A DNA stretch of 38,531 nucleotides from a virus: positions 1 to 38,531 of IMG/VR virus record IMGVR_UViG_3300039448_000025; one strand, given 5' to 3'. How positions within the stretch are numbered: the stretch's first letter is position 1; each line of letters opens with the position of its first letter. The notes below the pieces were generated by a model. It was not told the origin of the DNA, made no database searches, and saw only the letters and a program-made list of their open reading frames with translations. This document shows positions 6,194 through 38,027 of this stretch, piece by piece. The translations under genes were made by a program, and so were the position numbers.

Positions 6194-8905
6194 TTATTTG
6201 CCTGTGGTCTTAATTTTTGGGGCTTCAAATATCCAGCACTTGAGTACGCGATCTGCATCGAGCTTGCTTCTTACTGTGCTATTCGCTTCGATGAATTTTC
6301 GGCCTTTGCTGGTCTTGAGTAGGTTTTTTAGTAATCGCATGTCTGGTACTCGGAGTTTGAAATCTCCGCACTTTGTTTCGAACTCTTTCAGGTTTATCGC
6401 CCAGCGCGTCGGGTCGCCTTGTGGGGTGTCGGTTTCAAAGCCGAAGTGGTTTAGCTTGTAGGTTTCTTTGTAGCCATCGATGTAATCCACGGCTTCCCAA
6501 AACTCTTGAACGAGCGGGTGATCTGAATTGATCGCTTGTTGTCGCTCGACTGCCATTTCTCGCACTCGATTTTTCGCATTGTTTATTTCGTCGGGGGTGA
6601 ATAAATTTAAACCTTCTGGTCCGAGGCAATCGACGAGTGCCATCATCTGTCCTTGATTTTTAGCGATACGCATCATGCGTATTTTTCCGTTATTCAATAA
6701 TTCGTTCTCGTAATCTGTGCTGCGAGAAAAGAACATTGGCATTAAGTTTTTTTCTGCTGATGTCGCTTGCAAGATGAAATTCGATACTGCTTCAACCGGT
6801 ACGCGCTCTAAATACTCGGCATGCTGTTTTGTGTCGGGGTTCTGAAATTCACGCGTTACTGTGATGTGGCAGATACGAGATAAAATTGCATCAGATGCCA
6901 TCACTTGCTCGTTCTGAGATATAACGATCGTGCCGCGAAAGGGCGGTTCGTATGTATCGTTACCTGAGTTTTTAACGCCTCGGCTGCGCATTGATCGGCC
7001 GTTGAATGCCGTCTTTAAATCATCCCAGTCAAACTGTTTTGCTTTAGCACTGTCGCTCGCTTCACGGTCTGATTCGATCAATACAACCGGCAGATTTGAT
7101 ACTTGGCTAAACAAACGTGCGCGGGCAGCGACTGTTGATTTTTGCGGATCGAAACCTTCGTGTTCATCACGCCCAAGCAGTTTCCACAAAAATTCAATCA
7201 GCGTTGTTTTACCGGCTCCGGCTTCACCGACCAATTCGAAAAATGGGTAGGATTTCTGTGTTTGTCGGATCTGCTCCGCAAATAAACTTCCAAAGAAATA
7301 TGCGCAGCTGATTATGCCAACGCTGCCAAAGGCACCTGCTAAGTGACGCGGCCATGTTGCGTCATGTAAGGCACTGTTAGTATTGATATCTAACTCAGGG
7401 CTTTGCGCTAAGGTTTTGAGCTGAAGTCTTCCGAATTGAAAATAGTCTTCGTTGTTTATTTTCTGGATGCGGCCTTCACGGACAGCAGCGTCGTTCCAGA
7501 CGTAGGTTTTGTGCTCCTTGCTGTAGCCGATGTAATCAATCGTCTCAACAGTTTTGAGGTTGTGAGTCATGTCCATTAATAAGCGTTCTAACTGCTTGGC
7601 TTCACCAACCCACCACGCATTTTTAACTGCCAGTAAGCGGTTTTTAAATTCACCGGGGGATGTAAGCTGCTTTGGTGTAAATGCAAGCTTTGTGTGGCCC
7701 TCGTCGGTTTCTACGCCGAAGTAATACCACTGCTCTTGCGTGACTCGATTTTCTTGGAAATAAAGTGGGCGTGGGATCGCTGTTGAAATTTTTCTAACGC
7801 CTCCTGCATTGCGCAATGCTTCGCCGCGATCGTCTTCACTTAAGTCGCCAAGCTTATCTTCCATTTGACGAACTTCTTTGTCATACGCTTCTAGATCTAG
7901 CTTGAACCAATAAAGCGAGCTGTAGAACGTGAACCAAAATTCGCGACGTTCTTTCCGCTCATACATTAATAACGCTTTTTCTGCTGCGGATTTTGCGAGC
8001 AGTAGCTCACCAAAATGGAAGTAGTCATCAATGTGATCTTTCTTCATCAGCCCCAGCTGATGCAGATCGTTCCAGTCGTGATTTCTGCGGCCAGCAGGCG
8101 GCTGCGCTGCACAAACATTCCAGCCATCACGTTTGGCCATTGCCGCAAACTTTCGGATTGCTTTTTGGCCTGCTTTATCTCCATCTTGTGCCCAGCATAT
8201 TTTCGGCAGTTTTGTGTTTGCGTCTGCGCAGGCTTTTTTGATTCGAGATAACAATGCCGATGGGTAGTTACTACTGCTGATATTTGATGCCGCTATGTGG
8301 CCAGCGGATATCCATGCGATTGCATCGAAAATCCCTTCTGTGATGACGACTCGCTCTGCATTTGCTAAATCGACATCGGTGAATATCGGAGCCAGCCATA
8401 CAAGCCCTTTGTAATCACCAACGGCACGGGCTTTTAATTTTCCGAAACGCTCTGGTTTATCAAGCACTCGCTCCCAGAATCCATTCGGCATCGGGAATCG
8501 CACCGTTGTACTGCCTTCGTTAATTTCTGGGCTTTGAAACCATTCCTGCGAGTACCAGCCTTTAATTGTTGATAGATCAAATCCTCGACCATCTTTTAGA
8601 TATCCGTCAGCAACTGCTGTTGGGTTTGCTATGCGTTCTGCCTCAGTCGCAGGCTGATAACGATCGGTCCAGCTTTCAAATAGCTGTGGGAATAGCTCTT
8701 TAATGTGGTGAGCTTCGCCACAGTTGTTTGCGCGTCCGCATTTAATTACCCATGGGTTTTCAGAGCTAGTGAATGCTTCTTTTTTACCGCAAGTTGGGCA
8801 CTCAATTTGATTGATGTATGCGCCTTTTACTTTTCCGCCGTAGTTAAATTCAATCTCGCGCAGAACGTCCGCCTGCAGCGATGGGTTCATCGTGTAGTCG
8901 GTCAT
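6194..8905 (-). CDS. Replication protein: CHC2/Toprim primase fused to helicase (903 aa)
   Basis: The likely replication initiator or primase-helicase of the phage. Residues 36-65 form a CHC2-type zinc site (CPTCG, then C..C..H). Residues 186-265 hold a Toprim domain (VVITEGIFDA, then WAQDGDKAG). The C-terminal half carries an ATPase with Walker A GEAGAGKT (560-567) and Walker B VVLIES (607-612), of the kind found in P4 alpha-like and DUF927-type phage helicases. P2 itself uses a rolling-circle nickase (gpA), of which there is no sign here, so the replication module differs from P2. The ATG overlaps the stop of the Ogr-like gene (ATGA). Confidence 0.92.
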   Translation of the reverse strand: MTDYTMNPSLQADVLREIEFNYGGKVKGAYINQIECPTCGKKEAFTSSENPWVIKCGRANNCGEAHHIKELFPQLFESWTDRYQPATEAERIANPTAVADGYLKDGRGFDLSTIKGWYSQEWFQSPEINEGSTTVRFPMPNGFWERVLDKPERFGKLKARAVGDYKGLVWLAPIFTDVDLANAERVVITEGIFDAIAWISAGHIAASNISSSNYPSALLSRIKKACADANTKLPKICWAQDGDKAGQKAIRKFAAMAKRDGWNVCAAQPPAGRRNHDWNDLHQLGLMKKDHIDDYFHFGELLLAKSAAEKALLMYERKERREFWFTFYSSLYWFKLDLEAYDKEVRQMEDKLGDLSEDDRGEALRNAGGVRKISTAIPRPLYFQENRVTQEQWYYFGVETDEGHTKLAFTPKQLTSPGEFKNRLLAVKNAWWVGEAKQLERLLMDMTHNLKTVETIDYIGYSKEHKTYVWNDAAVREGRIQKINNEDYFQFGRLQLKTLAQSPELDINTNSALHDATWPRHLAGAFGSVGIISCAYFFGSLFAEQIRQTQKSYPFFELVGEAGAGKTTLIEFLWKLLGRDEHEGFDPQKSTVAARARLFSQVSNLPVVLIESDREASDSAKAKQFDWDDLKTAFNGRSMRSRGVKNSGNDTYEPPFRGTIVISQNEQVMASDAILSRICHITVTREFQNPDTKQHAEYLERVPVEAVSNFILQATSAEKNLMPMFFSRSTDYENELLNNGKIRMMRIAKNQGQMMALVDCLGPEGLNLFTPDEINNAKNRVREMAVERQQAINSDHPLVQEFWEAVDYIDGYKETYKLNHFGFETDTPQGDPTRWAINLKEFETKCGDFKLRVPDMRLLKNLLKTSKGRKFIEANSTVRSKLDADRVLKCWIFEAPKIKTTGK

Positions 8906-10021: not shown

Positions 10022-10441
10022 ATGTCAAACGATAGTGTGGAATATTTACACACAAGGCTCGGTGAAGAGCTGAAAGCACGTGATATTTCCGCAGCGGAAG
10101 CGGCCCGTCGAGCTGACGAAAAGAATGGAAATCGAATGCGCGAGGTGTTGAATGGACGTCAGCGTTTATCTGCAGAGCTGCTGGGTAAAATAGTGCTGAC
10201 ATGTGGTGTGGATGCGAATTATGTTCTGACCGGTCAACGTAATGCTCACGCGATCACGATCGACCATGTTCGTGCCGCATTTCAAATGGTTGCTGATGCC
10301 GAGGTGCAGTTACCTGATGGTCAGTTTTTATCGAGTGAGCAGCGAGTGGGTGCAGTATGCTCGCTGCTAAAGACCGCGCAAGCGGTTGGTAAAATCCCTG
10401 ATGCCAGCGCTGCTGTTGCGGTTCTAATGGCACTGAATTAG
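10022..10441 (+). CDS. Phage repressor, HTH-type (139 aa)
   Basis: Likely the immunity repressor (the role of P2 C). Residues about 8-60 form a lambda-type HTH (LGEELKARDISAAEAARRAD, then a recognition region with NRMREVLNGRQ), and the rest is a helical dimerisation region without the Ser-Lys protease domain of LexA-like repressors. So induction by RecA-driven self-cleavage is not expected, and the antirepressor-like protein at 2315 may provide induction instead. It is divergent from the early operon, across the operator dyad. Its stop overlaps the stop of the 55-aa minus-strand gene. Confidence 0.82.
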   Translation: MSNDSVEYLHTRLGEELKARDISAAEAARRADEKNGNRMREVLNGRQRLSAELLGKIVLTCGVDANYVLTGQRNAHAITIDHVRAAFQMVADAEVQLPDGQFLSSEQRVGAVCSLLKTAQAVGKIPDASAAVAVLMALN

Positions 10442-10752: not shown

Positions 10753-11202
10753 ATGCTGACATCAATCGCAGGGTTAGGCCCGCGACTAAAATCAGCAAGG
10801 AAAGCTAAGAAGTTATCCGCGAAATGGATGGTGAATTTTTTGAACGGATATATGGTGAGTGATGGGTACCCAAGTATCTCGATGAGCACGTATTACGCTT
10901 GGGAGCGGATCGGTACTCATCAAGAGCATAAAAGAGGGCGTCGCTGGCCTCATATAAAAGAAATCAAGCTAATGCTGATTCCTCTTGGTATAACCGGTTA
11001 TTGGCTGGTGAATGGTGATATGGACGGCAAAATTGTACGTGACCGTTCGTCACTGCCTGATCTGCAAACGATCAACTACGGCATGGAGCAGTGGGCAGCT
11101 ATTCAAGGAGTAGACAAGCTGCGGCATGAAGTAAATCGTTTAATTTATCGGCTGGATGAGCGAAAACGAACAGCACTTTTTAATTTTGTGAGATTGATGT
11201 GA
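10753..11202 (+). CDS. Second HTH (XRE-like) regulator (149 aa)
   Basis: Residues about 5-75 look like a lambda/XRE-type HTH: GPRLKSARKAKKLSAKWMVNFLN as the first helices, then a recognition segment (SMSTYYAWERIGTH). The C-terminal part is helical and ends at a stop that overlaps the GTG of the nuclease gene. GGGAG lies six bases before the ATG, and a palindrome at 10706 may be its operator. The unit lies where P2-like phages often carry accessory genes, between the repressor and gene D, and probably controls its own operon and the nuclease. Confidence 0.75.
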   Translation: MLTSIAGLGPRLKSARKAKKLSAKWMVNFLNGYMVSDGYPSISMSTYYAWERIGTHQEHKRGRRWPHIKEIKLMLIPLGITGYWLVNGDMDGKIVRDRSSLPDLQTINYGMEQWAAIQGVDKLRHEVNRLIYRLDERKRTALFNFVRLM

Positions 11203-11696
11203 TTAGAATTTTATTACTATTAATTAGCCTTCCTGTATTTGCTGGGACTTATGAACGATCGGAGTTTGGACGCTGGCTGGATGAAGATCGTGATTGCCAA
11301 AACACCCGGCACGAATTGCTTATAGAGCAATCAACTGTTCCTACAACACTCAGTGAGAACGGCTGTAGGGTTGTGCACGGCAGATGGATATCAATGTTCA
11401 CCAGTGCTGTTAATTCTGACGCTAGCAAGCTCGATATTGATCATGTTGTTCCGCTGGCTTGGGCATGGGATCGGGGGGCTGATAAGTGGGATAAAAAACG
11501 TCGGATATCCTTTGCAAATGATCCGCGTAATTTAATCGTTGTGGAAGCATCGTTAAACCGATCAAAAGGTGCTAAGGGGCCTGACGAGTGGCTGCCCCCA
11601 GAAAACAGATGCCAGTATACGTTGCGTTTTATTCGTGTCGCGAGATCTTATGAATTAACGTTTGATCATGATGCATTACGCACTGCCGGTTGCTAA
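11199..11696 (+). CDS. Secreted HNH-type nuclease, DUF1524-like (165 aa)
   Basis: The GTG start overlaps the stop of the HTH gene (GTGA). Residues 1-16 form a signal peptide (MIRILLLLISLPVFAG). The mature part carries an HNH core: H82 in IDHVVPLAWAW, N111 in NDPRNL and N120 in LNRSKG, the pattern of secreted HNH/DUF1524 nucleases. Four cysteines (33, 56, 138 and the C-terminal one) could form two disulphides, which fits an exported enzyme. Possible roles are nutrient scavenging, competition, or destruction of DNA arriving in the periplasm. It runs convergent with gene D and overlaps its end by 21 bases. Confidence 0.85.
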   Translation: MIRILLLLISLPVFAGTYERSEFGRWLDEDRDCQNTRHELLIEQSTVPTTLSENGCRVVHGRWISMFTSAVNSDASKLDIDHVVPLAWAWDRGADKWDKKRRISFANDPRNLIVVEASLNRSKGAKGPDEWLPPENRCQYTLRFIRVARSYELTFDHDALRTAGC

Positions 11697-12647
11697 CTCT
11701 GCTTCAATATCTGTGCTGTAGCCATTTCCAATACGTCGTTTAATTCGGCTGATGATTAATCGTTGTTCTTTAAATTCGCTGGGCCAATCGTTAGAAAATT
11801 CTATGGGTGAATCGGGCAGGGCATAAGGATCTATAGTCGGTATTGTTACGCTGAATACTGATTGCGCGCGTTGCAGTTGTTTCCAACGTGATTCAACAGC
11901 GCTCTGGCATTGTTTTTCGCTACGAAATGTACCGCCAAGGTTAAGCGGATTTATGTCGGTACCAACGCTCACTTCATTGCGCGTTGCTCCGAATTTATCG
12001 TTCCAAAATCCGGTTACCCCTGTGTAACTGGAGCTTTCAAGTTTTAACCGTGCGTCTTCAACTTCAGTGAGTTCGATAATTACGGGCTTTAATTCTTTTC
12101 CACTTGCTGTTGTGCCAGTTCCGGCTTCTTTAAATATCACCCGCCCCGATTTTACTGTTGCGATTGCATCATACATATCCCCAAGTCTCTGAATTACTGA
12201 TAAATCACTTTCACCCGTTTGATCAAAGTGATCGATACCGATCGCGCTAAGTGCCGCGCTAACGACGGACTCCAACGCATTTCGAGACGCAATTTGTTGC
12301 AGAATATCGCCAAGAGTTGTGTCTTCATAACTGACTTCTCGCCTTACTCGCAAGCTGTCCGTTACATCTGCAGATCGAGCAGTGATTGTTATAATTCGAT
12401 CTCGAATTGCAAACTCTGATGTGTCGACGTGGTATGTACCCATTTCAACCAGGTCGCCTTGATTATCAGCCAGCCATAATTGGAGCTGAGCTTTTGGCGG
12501 TGGCATAGTGATTAAAAGATCGTGGTTGCTGATCTCTATATCCAGTTGATCAACATTACCGTCGCGTTCGTCTGTCAGTGTTAAATTTATCAAGCGGTTG
12601 ATGATTAACGATGTGATGTCGTTTCCGTCGACAATTAATTTAATCAT
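11676..12647 (-). CDS. D: Tail hub protein gpD (late control D family)
   Basis: A 323-residue member of the phage late control gene D family, a baseplate hub component related to gp27 of T4. The N-terminus has the typical beta-rich opening (LIVDGNDITSLIINRLINLTLTDERDGNVDQ), and the rest follows P2 D in length. It is the last gene of the F operon (FI-FII-E-T-U-D). Its ATG overlaps the end of U (ATGA). Despite the family name it is structural; late activation here is left to the Ogr-like protein. Confidence 0.93.
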   Translation of the reverse strand: MIKLIVDGNDITSLIINRLINLTLTDERDGNVDQLDIEISNHDLLITMPPPKAQLQLWLADNQGDLVEMGTYHVDTSEFAIRDRIITITARSADVTDSLRVRREVSYEDTTLGDILQQIASRNALESVVSAALSAIGIDHFDQTGESDLSVIQRLGDMYDAIATVKSGRVIFKEAGTGTTASGKELKPVIIELTEVEDARLKLESSSYTGVTGFWNDKFGATRNEVSVGTDINPLNLGGTFRSEKQCQSAVESRWKQLQRAQSVFSVTIPTIDPYALPDSPIEFSNDWPSEFKEQRLIISRIKRRIGNGYSTDIEAELATGSA

Positions 12648-20892: not shown

Positions 20893-21332
20893 TAGCCAAC
20901 TTCCTGTTCAAAGCTTGCTAGGAACGCATTTGTTGCGGCTGCAGCAAGCGCTTGAGCACCTTCGCTCCAAACTGTTGGGCTTGCGGCTTGAATTTTTTCC
21001 ATGATCGATGCGGATGAAGGAACGTACAAATGGGTTGCGCTAGTTGAATTCCACGAAGCTGCCCAGAGGGCGGTTTCGGCATCGATACCAGTACCGATTG
21101 CTGTTAAGAACTCCAAGCCGTCAATCACAAAACCGGCAAACGCGACCGGGATAGTTGTTGCCATTGTTGTAACGGTTGAGGGGGATGCGCTAGTCCAGCC
21201 GTTATGCATCCCGCTCGCGAGTTTTTGCACGACCATGGATGCTTGCTTGATTTCTGTTTCAAAGCCGCCCTCAACGCTGTAGGGAACGTCGCCAATATTG
21301 GTAGCGATAGATTGTTGACCAGGAGAAGGCAT
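20892..21332 (-). CDS. Hypothetical protein between V and W (146 aa)
   Basis: An insertion relative to P2, in which V is directly followed by W. The start is set at the ATG at 21332 after GGAGGT; the frame up to 21407 overlaps V and lacks a ribosome site. The product is rich in Ala, Ser and Thr with a hydrophobic middle (IPVAFAGFVIDGLEFLTAIGTGI) and no clear signal. Its place among baseplate genes suggests a virion or assembly role. No family recognised. Confidence 0.75.
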   Translation of the reverse strand: MPSPGQQSIATNIGDVPYSVEGGFETEIKQASMVVQKLASGMHNGWTSASPSTVTTMATTIPVAFAGFVIDGLEFLTAIGTGIDAETALWAASWNSTSATHLYVPSSASIMEKIQAASPTVWSEGAQALAAAATNAFLASFEQEVG

Positions 21333-21922
21333 TACGCACCTCCTGTGCATGTCGTTGAACCTTGCGGATGCGGTGCACCGGTGAATGCACAAACGTGGGT
21401 TTGACAAACTAAACCACCGGCTGCGCCACCGTTTAATGTGACCGTCGCGCCTGTCGCTGCAACATCACCAACTGCATTGATTTCAACATTGCCGCCTGCA
21501 TCGATGACGGCGTTTTCTGATGCGGTAACCGATGCGTTTTTGCAGTTGACGACAACGGCATCGGGGCCATCGATAGTGAGTGTGCTGTTTTCTGAGTTGT
21601 ACGCGATGGTTGTGCCGTCGTTGTACTCGATGACATCAACGGATTCAGACGTTTCAGTTGCGCTAAAGTCTCCGCTATAAAGCATGCCTACGATTTGACC
21701 TTGCGATAAATCACCCGATGGGCAGAGCATCACGATTTGGGTATTGAGTGCGAGTGGACGCCAGCGAACATAATTCTTCCCCACGTCGGCGGGCCATGAC
21801 AGCCAAGCTGTTATGTTGTCGCCGGTTTTAACGCGCACTTTGCGCTCGCCATGATCTAATTCGGCAATGGTACCGATTCGGCAGAGGTTGTTGATCAGGC
21901 GGTGCAGTTCGGATGTTTTCAT
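21332..21922 (-). CDS. V: Baseplate spike protein gpV
   Basis: The central spike that punctures the outer membrane. The start MKTSELHRLINNLCRIGTIAELD and an OB-fold (HGERKVRVKTGDNITAWLSWPADVG) match P2 V. The middle is a triple-helix of beta repeats (SENSTLTIDGPDAVVVNC..., NAVIDAGGNVEIN...). The end (THVCAFTGAPHPQGSTTC) has His and Cys residues fitting a metal-binding tip. I chose the third ATG (21922); ATGs at 21931 and 21928 are also possible, since no strong ribosome site separates them. Confidence 0.92.
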   Translation of the reverse strand: MKTSELHRLINNLCRIGTIAELDHGERKVRVKTGDNITAWLSWPADVGKNYVRWRPLALNTQIVMLCPSGDLSQGQIVGMLYSGDFSATETSESVDVIEYNDGTTIAYNSENSTLTIDGPDAVVVNCKNASVTASENAVIDAGGNVEINAVGDVAATGATVTLNGGAAGGLVCQTHVCAFTGAPHPQGSTTCTGGA

Positions 21923-21983
21923 GACCATCATAATGCGATGGCCATGTTTTATAGGGTAGGGGGTTGTTATGTATGCAAGGGGG

Positions 21984-24672: not shown

Positions 24673-25452
24673 CTACCAGTTGCAGTAGATCAATTCAGTG
24701 ACTTTTTTCTGTTTGTTGTTGCCGCCAACGGTGTATGTGTGGTCGACATCGACGCGGCGGAATTCGGACATCAGTTCCATGATGTCTGGGTGGTCGTTGA
24801 TGCTGAGCACGACTTTGCCTTTTGCCTTACGCATGAACTCGCGGATCGCGACATATTCTTCCCATGGGAATTCGACGCCATAACCGACGGTGTCCCAGTA
24901 GGGCGGGTCGAGATAGAAGAGCGTGTGCTCTCGATCGTACCGTTGCGAGCATTCGAGCCATGGCAGGTGCTCTATCGTTGTTTGGCTGAGACGCATGTGT
25001 GCTTCAGCTAAGTCGTTTTCGATCGTTAGCAGGTTGAAGCGTGGGCGGGCTAGGGTGGCGGTACCAAAAGTCTGACGATCGACTTTGCCGCCAAAGGCGA
25101 GCTTTTGCAGATACAGAAATCGTGCTGCACGTTGGATGTCGGTCAGCACTTCAGGTGGGGTTTGCTGTAAGAGATGGAAGTTTTCACGACTGACGAGCAG
25201 CCATTTAAACTGTTTATACAGTTCTTCGAGGTGATGCTTTACGACACGGTATAAGTTAACTAGATCACCGTTTATATCGTTGATGACTTCTGCCTTGCTT
25301 GGCTCTTTCATAAAGAAGATCGCCGCCGCTCCACAGAACGGCTCGACGTAGCATTTGTGCTCAGGGAATAGTGGAAACAGGTGTTTTGCAAGACGGCGTT
25401 TGCCGCCTATCCACGGAACGATCGGGCGTGGCTTGGACTGGTTTTGTGACAT
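24673..25452 (-). CDS. dam: DNA adenine methyltransferase, D12 class (Dam-like)
   Basis: Probable N6-adenine DNA methyltransferase, 259 residues. Visible motifs are the N-terminal PWIGGKRRL, SAM-binding motif I YVEPFCGAAAI (35-45, with FCG for FxG), and the catalytic DPPY (182-185). The end (THTYTVGGNNKQKKVTELIYC) also fits the family. No endonuclease partner is nearby, so it is an orphan enzyme, likely protecting phage DNA or altering host regulation. It overlaps the com-like gene by 92 bases, and its ribosome site AAGGAG is inside a hairpin (25458-25473), a layout like com-mom of phage Mu. Confidence 0.9.
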   Translation of the reverse strand: MSQNQSKPRPIVPWIGGKRRLAKHLFPLFPEHKCYVEPFCGAAAIFFMKEPSKAEVINDINGDLVNLYRVVKHHLEELYKQFKWLLVSRENFHLLQQTPPEVLTDIQRAARFLYLQKLAFGGKVDRQTFGTATLARPRFNLLTIENDLAEAHMRLSQTTIEHLPWLECSQRYDREHTLFYLDPPYWDTVGYGVEFPWEEYVAIREFMRKAKGKVVLSINDHPDIMELMSEFRRVDVDHTYTVGGNNKQKKVTELIYCNW

Positions 25453-25579
25453 TATTGGCTCCTTGAATGGAGCTCTTGGCTCTCTCGATATGCTTACAGC
25501 GCGGGCACTTGATTTCTAATGTGACGAATTCAGCGCGCGCGAGCAGGCGACTGCATCGAGAGCAACGGACAGACTGCAT
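25361..25579 (-). CDS. com: Com-like zinc-finger translational regulator (72 aa)
   Basis: The start is set at the ATG at 25579 after GAGGT; the longer frame to 25687 has a low-complexity head and no ribosome site. The N-terminus (MQSVRCSRCSRLLARAEF, then IKCPRCKHIERA) matches Mu Com, a protein that binds mom mRNA through CxxC pairs (here C6, C9, C25, C28) and opens a hairpin over the mom ribosome site. The C-terminal 35 residues are unlike Mu Com and overlap dam. It likely controls translation of dam. Confidence 0.85.
   Translation of the reverse strand: MQSVRCSRCSRLLARAEFVTLEIKCPRCKHIERAKSSIQGANNVTKPVQATPDRSVDRRQTPSCKTPVSTIP
25458..25473 (-). promoter_or_regulatory. Hairpin sequestering the dam ribosome site
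   Basis: On the mRNA GCUCC (25473-25469) pairs with GGAGC (25462-25458) around a six-base loop AUUCAA. The downstream arm contains the AGGAG of the dam ribosome site, whose ATG follows six bases later. The stem is short, but it lies just where a Com-responsive inhibitory stem would be expected. Confidence 0.6.
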
Positions 25580-25852
25580 GATGAACCTCAGATAATTATC
25601 TGCTAGGCTCCACAAACCCTGAGCTCGGGGTGGGAGGCCTTGCTGGCTATGGCGGTCTGTTCGCTGTGGTTGGGGCTGATTTTGCATTGCAGTGCTTAAT
25701 CAGTCGCCTCTCTCTTTCTGGTTTTATAGTATCAGCTTGTCGTTTTATCTAAGCATAGAATTACTAGTAGATAGGCTGCTTACATTAAATATTAAAATAT
25801 GGGACGCTTTGGCTACCGAATGGTTAGTATCTGATAGAATGGAGTAAGTTTT
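25580..25852. other. Divergent promoter region between com and the accessory genes
   Basis: This 273-base gap holds no convincing gene. The right half (about 25720-25850) is AT-rich, and promoters for the plus-strand membrane gene are expected there. The left half should hold the promoter of com-dam. No TGT-N13-ACA late dyad was found, so com-dam may not be under Ogr control. A CTCAGATAATTATCTG near-palindrome lies at about 25586-25601. Confidence 0.4.
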
Positions 25853-26587
25853 ATGAGTAATAAGGATGGTGGATTTTATACTGTACGATCAATTGCAATG
25901 ACACTTTTTCTTGGAATATTGGTCGCTGCACTCTGGGATGTCTTAGTAAAAGATTTTATGTATTATCTGGGTGGGGAGTTCGCATCGACTGCAGCTTCTA
26001 TTTATTCTGGATATTTTGATCTTCTTTATGAAAATGTTGGTGTTGGTCATCAATCATTAATTTATTTTCCTGCTATTTTATCTCTTGTAGTATTTACCTT
26101 TTCGCCAGTTATACACTATTTTATTTTATCTCGATATTTCAAGAGAGATGGTGTTGTTATAGATGGACGATATAGGCCGTATAAGAGTTTACCTGCTAAT
26201 GAGGCTAATGAGGCTGATGAGGCTGATAAGTCTCGCGTAAGAAATATTAGCGAGAAAAATCTCAAACGTATTTTTTGGCTTTTTGATCAGATGAGGTTTC
26301 ATCCTGTTCGAACTAAAATTGCATTGTCATCTCCAATGTTAATATTTTCATTTATGTTTATGCATATCCTTATTCAGTTTACGTCTGGAATTTCAGCTCA
26401 ATTTCAGATTGAAAGAAATTTGCAAATTATAAGGCCTTATATAACTGAGACTGATTATTATAAACTTAACAGTGATTACAGAATGGTAGATGATCTTAGT
26501 AAGCTAACTTCTATTGTAGTAAGAATTGAAGAGGTAGCGAAGAATAATAAACTTGATTTGCCAGTATTTACTTTGTACGGAATTTGA
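25853..26587 (+). CDS. Accessory membrane protein of unknown function (244 aa)
   Basis: Not recognised. Three likely membrane segments are seen: residues about 12-30 (SIAMTLFLGILVAALWDVLV), 66-90 (SLIYFPAILSLVVFTFSPVIHYFIL) and 158-178 (ALSSPMLIFSFMFMHILIQF). Between the last two is a cytoplasmic-looking charged loop with a short ANEADEADK repeat, and the C-terminal 60 residues are soluble and helical. The gene is AT-rich compared with its neighbours and is on the opposite strand, so it was probably acquired separately. It lies with the DUF3800-like gene between S and the tail genes, the site of a nonessential gene in P2. A role in phage exclusion is possible. Confidence 0.75.
   Translation: MSNKDGGFYTVRSIAMTLFLGILVAALWDVLVKDFMYYLGGEFASTAASIYSGYFDLLYENVGVGHQSLIYFPAILSLVVFTFSPVIHYFILSRYFKRDGVVIDGRYRPYKSLPANEANEADEADKSRVRNISEKNLKRIFWLFDQMRFHPVRTKIALSSPMLIFSFMFMHILIQFTSGISAQFQIERNLQIIRPYITETDYYKLNSDYRMVDDLSKLTSIVVRIEEVAKNNKLDLPVFTLYGI
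26195..26230 (+). repeat. Four tandem 9-bp repeats inside the accessory membrane gene
   Basis: Four copies of GCTAATGAG or close variants (GCTGATGAG, GCTGATAAG) in frame, coding for three-residue units ANE/ADE/ADK in a loop between membrane segments. The number of units may vary between strains by slippage. Confidence 0.8.
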
Positions 26588-26685
26588 TTGTGTGTATTCA
26601 AATTTATACTACATTTAGCATATATTTTAATGATCGATAAGTTAAAAAACGTAAGTGAATCATCCTCCTGAAATAGGATTACGAT

Positions 26686-27738
26686 ATGATAGCGTACCCA
26701 CCATTTTTACCAGAGTCAGTTGCTGGCATTGAAAAAACCTGTCACAAGTGCGGGGCGATTGTTAAGCCGAACTTCTGGGAGGAGTTTGACGAACCATTTA
26801 CGCCAATTCATACAGAAGGAATTAATGGTGAAAAATTTGCATTGGTTCGAGTTGGTACCGTGAATTTTTGCGTATGTGGCGAGAAGGTTGACTTTCCACT
26901 TGATGCTAAAAGGCTAGTTCATCCCATCTACTTTTACGGGGATGATGCTGACCGATTGTTAGATCACTACCACCTCCACTCCTATAGTGTTATTGGCGGA
27001 ACAAGCGGCCCTATACAGGAAATCTCTGATGATCTCACAAGGCTAAAGATTAAATACATACCATCTGTCGATCCTAATAGTTGGCGTATCCATGTAACGG
27101 AAATGCTCAATTCTAGAAAAAGAATTACTCATGGTGTTTATAAAAATTTTAGTAGAGATTCATTGAATATGTTTTTTTTAGAGTGTGCAGAAATATTAAG
27201 AAGCCGAGAAAAAATGACTTGGAATCGTCACGTCACTGCAATAGTAAGAAATCCGAAGAATAAAAAGAATAAGGCAAAATCTCTTAATGAAGTTAAACAG
27301 CATGCTCATAATGCTTTGCTTTCATTATCAATATTTGATGCAACAAAACAGAAGTTGCGACCAGTATTCACTTTCGATGCATCAAAACCAGTTATGAAGT
27401 CTACATACATAGAAGGTTGGTCATTCAACTCATATAGTAATTCTCGTCGCTATATTGCGCATGCTTATTTGACTCACAGTAATGACATCTCTCCTCCTGT
27501 TTTTGTAAAGCCAGGAAGTCATCCTTGTCTAGAATTAGCAGATGTACATGCATACTTTTCGGCCAGATGCATATTTGAACGGTATCGTGGCGATGACCCT
27601 GAATTCCCATTGAGTAAATTTGGTACTTTTCGATATATGACAGTTCAAAATGGTGAGAAGATAATGTTTAAAGATGGAGATGATATTCCTATTAACTATC
27701 ATCCAGTAAAATCAACTAACACGAAATTTAAAGTCTGA
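26686..27738 (+). CDS. Accessory protein, DUF3800-like with zinc-ribbon head (350 aa)
   Basis: The N-terminus has two cysteine pairs (CHKCGAIVK at 19-22, then FCVCG near 62-65) that could form a zinc ribbon. The rest resembles DUF3800 proteins, an RNase H-like fold: WRIHVTEML in the middle, FTFDASKP, and a late ELADVHAYFSARCIFERY segment, whose Asp residues would be catalytic. The match is judged by eye. The gene is AT-rich, begins 99 bases after the membrane gene on the same strand and ends convergent with S. With the membrane protein it forms a candidate two-gene antiviral or exclusion locus. Confidence 0.6.
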   Translation: MIAYPPFLPESVAGIEKTCHKCGAIVKPNFWEEFDEPFTPIHTEGINGEKFALVRVGTVNFCVCGEKVDFPLDAKRLVHPIYFYGDDADRLLDHYHLHSYSVIGGTSGPIQEISDDLTRLKIKYIPSVDPNSWRIHVTEMLNSRKRITHGVYKNFSRDSLNMFFLECAEILRSREKMTWNRHVTAIVRNPKNKKNKAKSLNEVKQHAHNALLSLSIFDATKQKLRPVFTFDASKPVMKSTYIEGWSFNSYSNSRRYIAHAYLTHSNDISPPVFVKPGSHPCLELADVHAYFSARCIFERYRGDDPEFPLSKFGTFRYMTVQNGEKIMFKDGDDIPINYHPVKSTNTKFKV

Positions 27739-27821
27739 ATCGTTATGATTGGTACTCATGGGTTTTGGTAGTATTGAACGATAATTTCCGAGCTGCATGG
27801 ATTAAAGCGCTACCTAATGAG
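27739..27821. other. Gap between the accessory locus and gene S
   Basis: Short convergent gap. ATCGTT (27739-27744) and AACGAT (27777-27782) form a weak long-loop inverted repeat with inner TACT/AGTA pairing; there is no T-run, so it is at best a poor terminator for the two convergent transcripts. Confidence 0.3.
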
Positions 27822-28259
27822 TCAACGGGGAAGCAGAGTTGATTCTGCTAGATCCTTTATCGTTTCAATATCTTGTTTTGTGTATCCGAGTAGTTCACGT
27901 TTCTCATATCTAACTTTTTTCTGACCCGGTCCCGGTGATGATTGAAGCCCTTCTTGATGGACCTTTGCAATGCGGCCTACGCGGCCGCGAAATGCTACCC
28001 ATACTTCAGATTCACTATAGCGGCTTAACAGGTTTGGCCGCTTGCGTATTTTCTCGAACATGGCCTTGCGGCCTTTCTTGCGTGATTCAAATGGTGAGCC
28101 GTCAGGGTTTTTCTGATCGCGAATTCGGTTACTTTGGCTACGCCATAGGTAGCGTGAAACCGCTCGCCCAAATTCTCGACGGCCTTCTGCAGATGCTCCG
28201 TGAATGTAGGGCTTTAGCCATTCTTCCAGCTTGCTTTCAATATCAATGATGTCAGTCAT
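27822..28259 (-). CDS. S: Tail completion protein gpS
   Basis: A 145-residue member of the P2 S / phage virion morphogenesis family (P2: 150). Typical features are WLKPYIHGASAEGRREFGRAVSRYLWRSQSNRIRDQKNPDGSPF and a very basic centre. It is needed to finish the tail and join it to the head. It overlaps R by 8 bases and ends the O operon. Confidence 0.93.
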   Translation of the reverse strand: MTDIIDIESKLEEWLKPYIHGASAEGRREFGRAVSRYLWRSQSNRIRDQKNPDGSPFESRKKGRKAMFEKIRKRPNLLSRYSESEVWVAFRGRVGRIAKVHQEGLQSSPGPGQKKVRYEKRELLGYTKQDIETIKDLAESTLLPR

Positions 28260-28698
28260 TGAATTTATCCTGACCAGTTGTTTTGTTCAGCGTTGGGAAT
28301 GAGCCTTCCCACTCTGGCACTGGCTCGTCGGGATGTGTGGTGTTGTGGTTACCTTGGTCGTCAGTTGTGACGATAACTCGCTGATCGGTAGGGAATGTGA
28401 TACGTATGTCAGCGCGATCGTTGTCCAGTGGATCAAGCAAAAAACGTATGTCGTCACGTTTTAGGTCGCGTTGATTTTTTTGAAGCCAGATTATTAATGG
28501 CAAGAATAATTCGTCTGCATGGCCGCTGAATTCTTCGCAGATGACGGTGGTTTGCCATACGTATGAGAATGATAGAGAGCTGTCAAAGTCTCCTTGAATT
28601 TGGCCTTCGTCTGCAAAAATATGGATAGAGTCGGGGTTGTTTTTTAGACCGGGTACACGATCAATCAGGTGTTGTTTCAGGCTGTTGAGTTTGTCCAT
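28252..28698 (-). CDS. R: Tail completion protein gpR
   Basis: A 148-residue protein of the P2 R family (P2: 155), starting MDKLNSLKQHLIDRVPGLKNNPDSIHIF and containing DELFLPLIIWLQKNQRDL. It acts with S in tail completion. Its ATG lies inside the end of the Rz1-like gene (38-base overlap), so it is translated within the lysis-to-tail part of the O operon. Confidence 0.93.
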   Translation of the reverse strand: MDKLNSLKQHLIDRVPGLKNNPDSIHIFADEGQIQGDFDSSLSFSYVWQTTVICEEFSGHADELFLPLIIWLQKNQRDLKRDDIRFLLDPLDNDRADIRITFPTDQRVIVTTDDQGNHNTTHPDEPVPEWEGSFPTLNKTTGQDKFND

Positions 28699-37990: not shown

Positions 37991-38014
37991 TTCAAATCCC
38001 TATCCCTCCGCCAT
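37991..38014 (+). repeat. attR: attR core (24-bp direct repeat)
   Basis: Exact copy of 104-127, i.e. the 3' end of the tRNA-Ser gene without its 5' part. It marks the right end of the prophage. A displaced tRNA terminator follows 14 bases later, which supports this as the original chromosomal tRNA end. Confidence 0.95.
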
Positions 38015-38027
38015 ATTTAACAGAGAA

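Follow-up and report, generated by a model that had tools for sequence, protein, structure and literature searches.

Do the two AT-rich genes that interrupt the late region of a P2-like prophage protect their host against other phages, and do they act together? The prophage is integrated in the DNA of a 38,531-bp virus record, the whole of which we refer to as the window. We find that the locus is probably best explained overall as an accessory anti-phage cassette that is expressed during lysogeny.

Anatomy of the locus

The prophage has P2-style genes (Int, replication protein, cII-like regulator, tail, lysis, head, terminase, and portal), and its late genes lie on the minus strand. Two plus-strand open reading frames run antisense to these late genes, between S and the com, dam, and tail-fibre genes. 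A preliminary description had reported two AT-rich plus-strand genes at 25853-27738 inside the minus-strand late region, and these coordinates prove exact. Gene 1 (25853-26587, +) encodes a predicted inner-membrane protein of 244 aa. Gene 2 (26686-27738, +) encodes a protein of 350 aa, a probable enzyme, with a zinc ribbon and a divergent domain of the DUF3800 (RNase H-fold) type. Both reading frames are intact, and they exceed chance expectation: across 500 base shuffles of this region, no open frame was longer than 148 codons, versus 244 and 350.

One border of the insert is the gpS-like tail completion gene S (27822-28259, -; PF05069, E 3e-21), next to gene R (28252-28698, -). The immediate neighbours on the other side are a Com-like zinc-ribbon gene (25361-25591, -; start approximate) and a D12 adenine methylase gene (24673-25452, -), followed by tail-fibre genes. 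The gpV-like baseplate spike gene V (21332-21931, -; Phage_base_V), the other border of the spot, lies beyond all of these; thus, the insert falls within the S-V interval without directly adjoining V. With both borders located, the position is that of P2 orf30, as the preliminary description had proposed.

The composition of the insert is foreign. The GC content is 0.329 in gene 1 and 0.377 in gene 2 versus 0.464 in the rest of the window, while GC at third codon positions is 0.22 and 0.30, respectively. Over the whole interval 25691-27822, it is 35%, against 46% elsewhere. The 98-nt intergenic region (26588-26685, +) contains no terminator-like site, and promoter-like sites in the gene 1/gene 2 region are no commoner than in shuffled sequence, so the two genes may or may not be co-transcribed. 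RNA folding in the intergenic regions at the locus is no better than in shuffles, and the locus has no CRISPR and no Rfam DUF3800-associated RNA motif. No insertion-scar-like repeats were seen flanking the cassette.

Contents of the S-V spot in P2-like prophages

We compared the late region of 67 P2-like loci from species genomes and two reference phages. We located both S and V in 51 of these loci, in 26 of which they lie more than 500 bp apart. Between R and S, a large insert occurred in only 1 of the 51 loci (L014; 2 kb; R ends at 6744 and S starts at 8762), and between V and J, beyond the W gene, in none of 49. Every S-V insert had a lower GC content than its flanks (26/26; mean difference, 12.6 points), and 16 of the 26 carried an open reading frame of at least 100 aa antisense to the late genes. 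The window insert has the same features: it lies between S and V, is absent or different in relatives, and is compositionally foreign. For example, L003, the most closely related phage contig (91% identity in the capsid), has different genes at the spot, on the late strand, which counts against our reading of the cassette; in Shewanella phage M16-3, among the closest named relatives, it holds five antisense genes, some of which encode membrane proteins.

Known defence genes are frequent at this spot. A P2-like prophage of [Erwinia] mediterraneensis carries the PARIS genes AriA/AriB there, antisense to the late genes (L017:15619-17713, -). Other S-V spots hold a TIR effector (L026), an EcoRII endonuclease with its methylase (L044), a caspase domain (L006), or an N6/N4 methylase (L019). 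In a marine Oceanospirillaceae metagenome-assembled genome (L007:15800-18594, +), the spot contains genes for a Cap12-like TIR protein, a DhiT-like toxin, a SLATT membrane protein, and an unknown protein, with the SLATT gene beside the TIR gene; this group may be an undescribed defence cluster. Furthermore, three S-V inserts match the PADLOC candidate family PDC-S31. These are probably the three enterobacterial prophages with antisense DUF2971 genes at the spot (L018:14599-15492, L022:15203-16111, and L031:14641-15531; all -), the first of which is paired with a DUF5677 gene. The earlier statement that P2-like prophages carry antiviral genes in variable spots is thus borne out for S-V by PARIS, TIR, EcoRII, caspase-like, and SLATT genes.

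The variability of the site was already known: foreign genes commonly replace orf30 in P2-like phages (PMC3091744). What we measure here is its defence content. The cassette also resembles the contents of P2-like accessory spots, namely, orf30/S-V, the TO region with old and tin, and Z/fun, in that it occupies the orf30 position of P2 and these spots are variable, AT-rich, and often antisense. In contrast, the best-studied defence hotspots of P2-like coliphages lie between the replication gene and the portal gene (PMC9122126) and at fun (PMC9519451). We found no paper that names S-V as a defence hotspot in the literature accessible to our search.

Because genes not recognized as defence genes occupy the spot as well, location suggests a defence function for the window cassette but does not prove it. 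These other genes favour an alternative, that both genes are accessory without any defence role, such as host-fitness genes or decaying morons. The extreme rarity of the two genes points the same way. However, both frames are intact, defence genes are frequent at the spot, and relatives of gene 2 with about 25% identity have retained its acidic and cysteine motifs, implying that the enzyme is under selection. We therefore regard a role outside defence as somewhat unlikely.

Gene 2 and the DUF3800 family

DUF3800 proteins (PF12686) have been described as RNase H-fold accessories of Cas12a2 (V-A2) and type VI-F CRISPR loci (PMC10910872, PMC12669027). The preliminary description had read gene 2 as a Zn ribbon joined to a DUF3800-like domain, and our comparisons uphold this reading, with a Pfam match that stays below threshold. 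The zinc ribbon (CxxC...CxC; codons Cys19 to Cys64, 26740-26877, +) has cysteines at positions 19, 22, 62, and 64, all four of which are invariant across the three full-length members of the subfamily. The three members also have in common the motifs GD[DE]A, Trp-x2-His, Gly-Trp, and E[LI]AD. Within the domain, Asp86, the acidic residue at position 87, Glu283, and Asp286 of gene 2 are kept in both full-length relatives.

Asp-Glu and Gln/Asp are invariant among 19 canonical DUF3800 proteins. Gene 2 has counterparts of both sites: Gly-Asp-Asp-Ala (codons 85-88, 26938-26949, +) corresponds to the N-terminal DES motif and Glu-Leu-Ala-Asp (codons 283-286, 27532-27543, +) to QxAD. The order of motifs is likewise that of DUF3800, with GD[DE]A in place of DES at the start of the domain, then a His, then a C-terminal E[LI]AD in place of QxAD. 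The acidic residues that characterize the family at the domain start and in the C-terminal [QE]xAD are therefore present, with Glu substituted for Gln. The Asp of the ELADVH segment, singled out earlier as a target for mutation, belongs to this conserved site.

Gene 2 nevertheless departs from canonical DUF3800 in three respects: it has an additional N-terminal C4 zinc ribbon, it has Glu rather than Gln before the final Asp, and it scores below the Pfam cut-off of 21 bits (16.4 bits, E 0.016). Its two full-length relatives also fall below this cut-off (17.5 and 19.4 bits), although all three subthreshold matches cover the appropriate section of the model. Profile-profile comparison with hhalign, using the 19 canonical proteins as the target and capsid profiles as controls, gave an E value of 3e-4 with a profile of two members and 2.6e-5 with a profile of three, one of which was an outgroup, versus 0.51-0.52 for the controls. 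The corresponding probabilities were 40% and 75%, from profiles that contain few sequences. The outgroup (L073) is a DUF3800-like protein of 258 aa that has no zinc ribbon and is a marginal match (6.4e-4), and it was used in this role only. In the resulting alignment, both invariant acidic motifs of DUF3800 pair in register with GD[DE]A and E[LI]AD.

Since gene 2 does not reach the Pfam cut-off, we call it a divergent, zinc-ribbon-bearing relative of DUF3800 and not a formal member. Its RNase H fold is predicted from this family relationship (PMC10910872, PMC12669027), because a structure model built without an alignment (AlphaFold; mean pLDDT, 32.7) was too poor for a fold search. No PADLOC model (PADLOC-DB 2.0.0) matches any member of the subfamily, and, unlike the CRISPR-linked DUF3800 genes, the window locus is accompanied by neither a CRISPR nor a DUF3800-associated RNA motif. 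Gene 2 is a probable anti-phage nuclease. It is also probably a defence gene, and the best functional evidence for this is its location.

Partnership of the two genes and proposed function

Full-length relatives of gene 2 were found in only two other places, an Acinetobacter baumannii plasmid and one proteobacterial genome. A search of 72,556 plasmid records returned a single matching protein, on plasmid pM175-3.1 (25% identity over 90%, E 3e-18). A two-member profile built from this protein and gene 2 then detected the third full-length member in genome G1175 (E 6e-28), a relative that is found in 1 of 11 genomes of its genus and 1 of 74 of its family. No relative was found in a first scan of genome contigs or in 739 genomes sampled from Moraxellaceae and the order of Marinobacterium. 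Single-protein and alignment queries of phage records and IMG/VR contigs likewise returned no relative of either gene. The subfamily, defined by a four-cysteine zinc ribbon and a divergent DUF3800 domain, is thus rare.

On pM175-3.1, the relative adjoins a type I restriction-modification operon that contains an "abortive infection" gene; an IS5 element, directly upstream of the relative, lies between them. On the other side are LeoA/LeoBC-like GTPase genes. Together with the defence content of the S-V spot, this restriction-modification neighbourhood supports the candidate status that the preliminary description had given to the locus. In G1175, the neighbours encode a 205-aa Arg-x4-His protein and a DUF2513 protein. 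The former (L102:842-1459, +) is directly upstream of the DUF3800 relative and appears HEPN-like by eye (Pfam E 0.14).

The gene 1 protein has hydrophobic segments at residues 7-36, 68-93, and 156-180, as expected from its earlier designation as a three-segment membrane protein, and is helical, with a soluble helical C-terminal tail. It matches no family or effector model, and its only match in PADLOC-DB 2.0.0 is at chance level (0.02). Its structure model (AlphaFold, built without an alignment; mean pLDDT, 57.4) was too poor for a fold search. Searches for gene 1 in phages, plasmids, and IMG/VR returned no relative, and neither did those in seven P2-like prophage hosts and in 340 genomes from the class of Marinobacterium; tblastn searches of plasmids with the protein or its C-terminal tail returned nothing. 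Gene 1 may be a membrane partner of gene 2 or a separate exclusion protein.

The preliminary description had treated the two genes as one system. The co-occurrence that this predicts was absent: neither of the two other gene 2 loci has a gene 1-like or multi-transmembrane neighbour, and no relative of gene 1 was found in any collection searched. This result weakens the pair model without ending it, because two loci are few, one of them is a contig of 4.7 kb, and IS5 could have removed a partner from the plasmid. An obligate system of gene 1 and gene 2 appears unlikely. The alternative that the genes are independent morons in one spot, with gene 2 as a nuclease-type gene that acts alone and gene 1 coding for a membrane protein unconnected with it, for instance one for superinfection exclusion, is a serious contender, to which we give almost as much credence as doubt. 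It would account for gene 2 relatives that have no multi-transmembrane neighbour, for the 98-nt spacing without overlap, and for the difference in GC content (0.329 versus 0.377), and in other phages (e.g., L007 and L044), genes with no relation to one another can occur together at the S-V spot. However, the two genes are adjacent on the same strand, both are AT-rich, no terminator-like site separates them, and the IS5 upstream of the plasmid relative leaves room for the loss of a partner there.

A more specific form of the pair model is the sensor nuclease with a membrane effector envisaged in the preliminary description. Here, the zinc-ribbon DUF3800 protein would sense or process phage nucleic acid, and the three-segment protein would permeabilize the inner membrane, giving an abortive system of two components. 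The DUF3800-like identity of gene 2 is supported, while the pairing is not, leaving this as one hypothesis among several. The genes are arranged as an adjacent pair, and membrane effectors occur beside enzymatic genes at S-V spots elsewhere, as with the Cap12-like TIR and SLATT genes of L007. Like SLATT and CBASS-type membrane effectors, gene 1 encodes a small, helical membrane protein and lies next to a catalytic gene; unlike them, its product contains three hydrophobic segments and is recognized by no SLATT or other effector model. Furthermore, the pair is seen nowhere else, gene 1 has no relatives and belongs to no known effector family, and the literature searched describes no sensor function for DUF3800. 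We consider such a two-component system rather improbable. More speculative still, and quite improbable, is that zinc-ribbon DUF3800 proteins form an undescribed family of stand-alone anti-phage nucleases that has here recruited a three-segment effector into a new two-gene abortive system.

The cassette resembles PARIS (AriA/AriB) in having two genes at the S-V spot that run against the late genes. The two systems have no domains in common, however, and neither of the window proteins has a match to AriA or AriB. We reject membership of the pair in PARIS, CBASS, or CRISPR, for which there was no model match.

Thus, we favour a horizontally acquired, host-benefit (moron-type) anti-phage insert in the S-V accessory spot. 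Because the genes lie opposite to the late genes, both would be expected to have a promoter of their own that is active in the lysogen. On infection by another phage, gene 2 would act as a metal-dependent RNase H-fold nuclease against phage or host nucleic acid, with the zinc ribbon recognizing a substrate or partner, and gene 1 would act as a membrane partner or as a separate exclusion protein. We think it fairly likely that at least one of the two genes confers protection. The anatomy, the foreign composition, the hotspot, and the conserved motifs are established, whereas expression, nuclease activity, trigger, and protection are inferred; for the pair and for any activity, the support goes no further than location and distant homology.

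DUF3800 is widespread: of 143 genomes sampled from the class of Marinobacterium, 21 contain it. Apart from its occurrence in rare CRISPR loci, however, little is known of its role in biology. A zinc-ribbon DUF3800 gene in a prophage defence spot provides a small, testable handle on that role, and the window locus is a real, well-placed candidate. Since, in many hosts, PARIS, TIR, EcoRII, caspase-like, and SLATT genes occupy the S-V (orf30) position of P2-like phages, uncharacterized S-V genes are good candidates for defence screens.

The window has further features of interest. A tRNA-Ser(TGA) gene lies at 36-126, and a near-identical 29-bp repeat of its 3' end is found at 104-132 and 37991-38018; these repeats fit the prophage attachment sites attL and attR, beyond which lies host DNA. 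The Com-like gene (Mu Com-like zinc ribbon, PF10122, E 8e-10) is directly upstream of, and overlaps, the D12 adenine methylase gene, which gives a com-mom-like arrangement in a P2-like phage (24673-25591, -). In the early region, there is a match to the Rfam family sRNA-Xcc1 (2904-2987, -; 69.9 bits, E 7.6e-11, above the gathering score). A second antisense cassette (10753-11696, +), between the cII-like gene and a tail gene (11676-12647), comprises overlapping genes of 149 and 165 aa, the second of which encodes a GmrSD C-terminal HNH domain (PF07510, E 3e-11). Upstream of it, a 139-aa gene (10022-10441, +) may encode a repressor (weak HTH_3 match).
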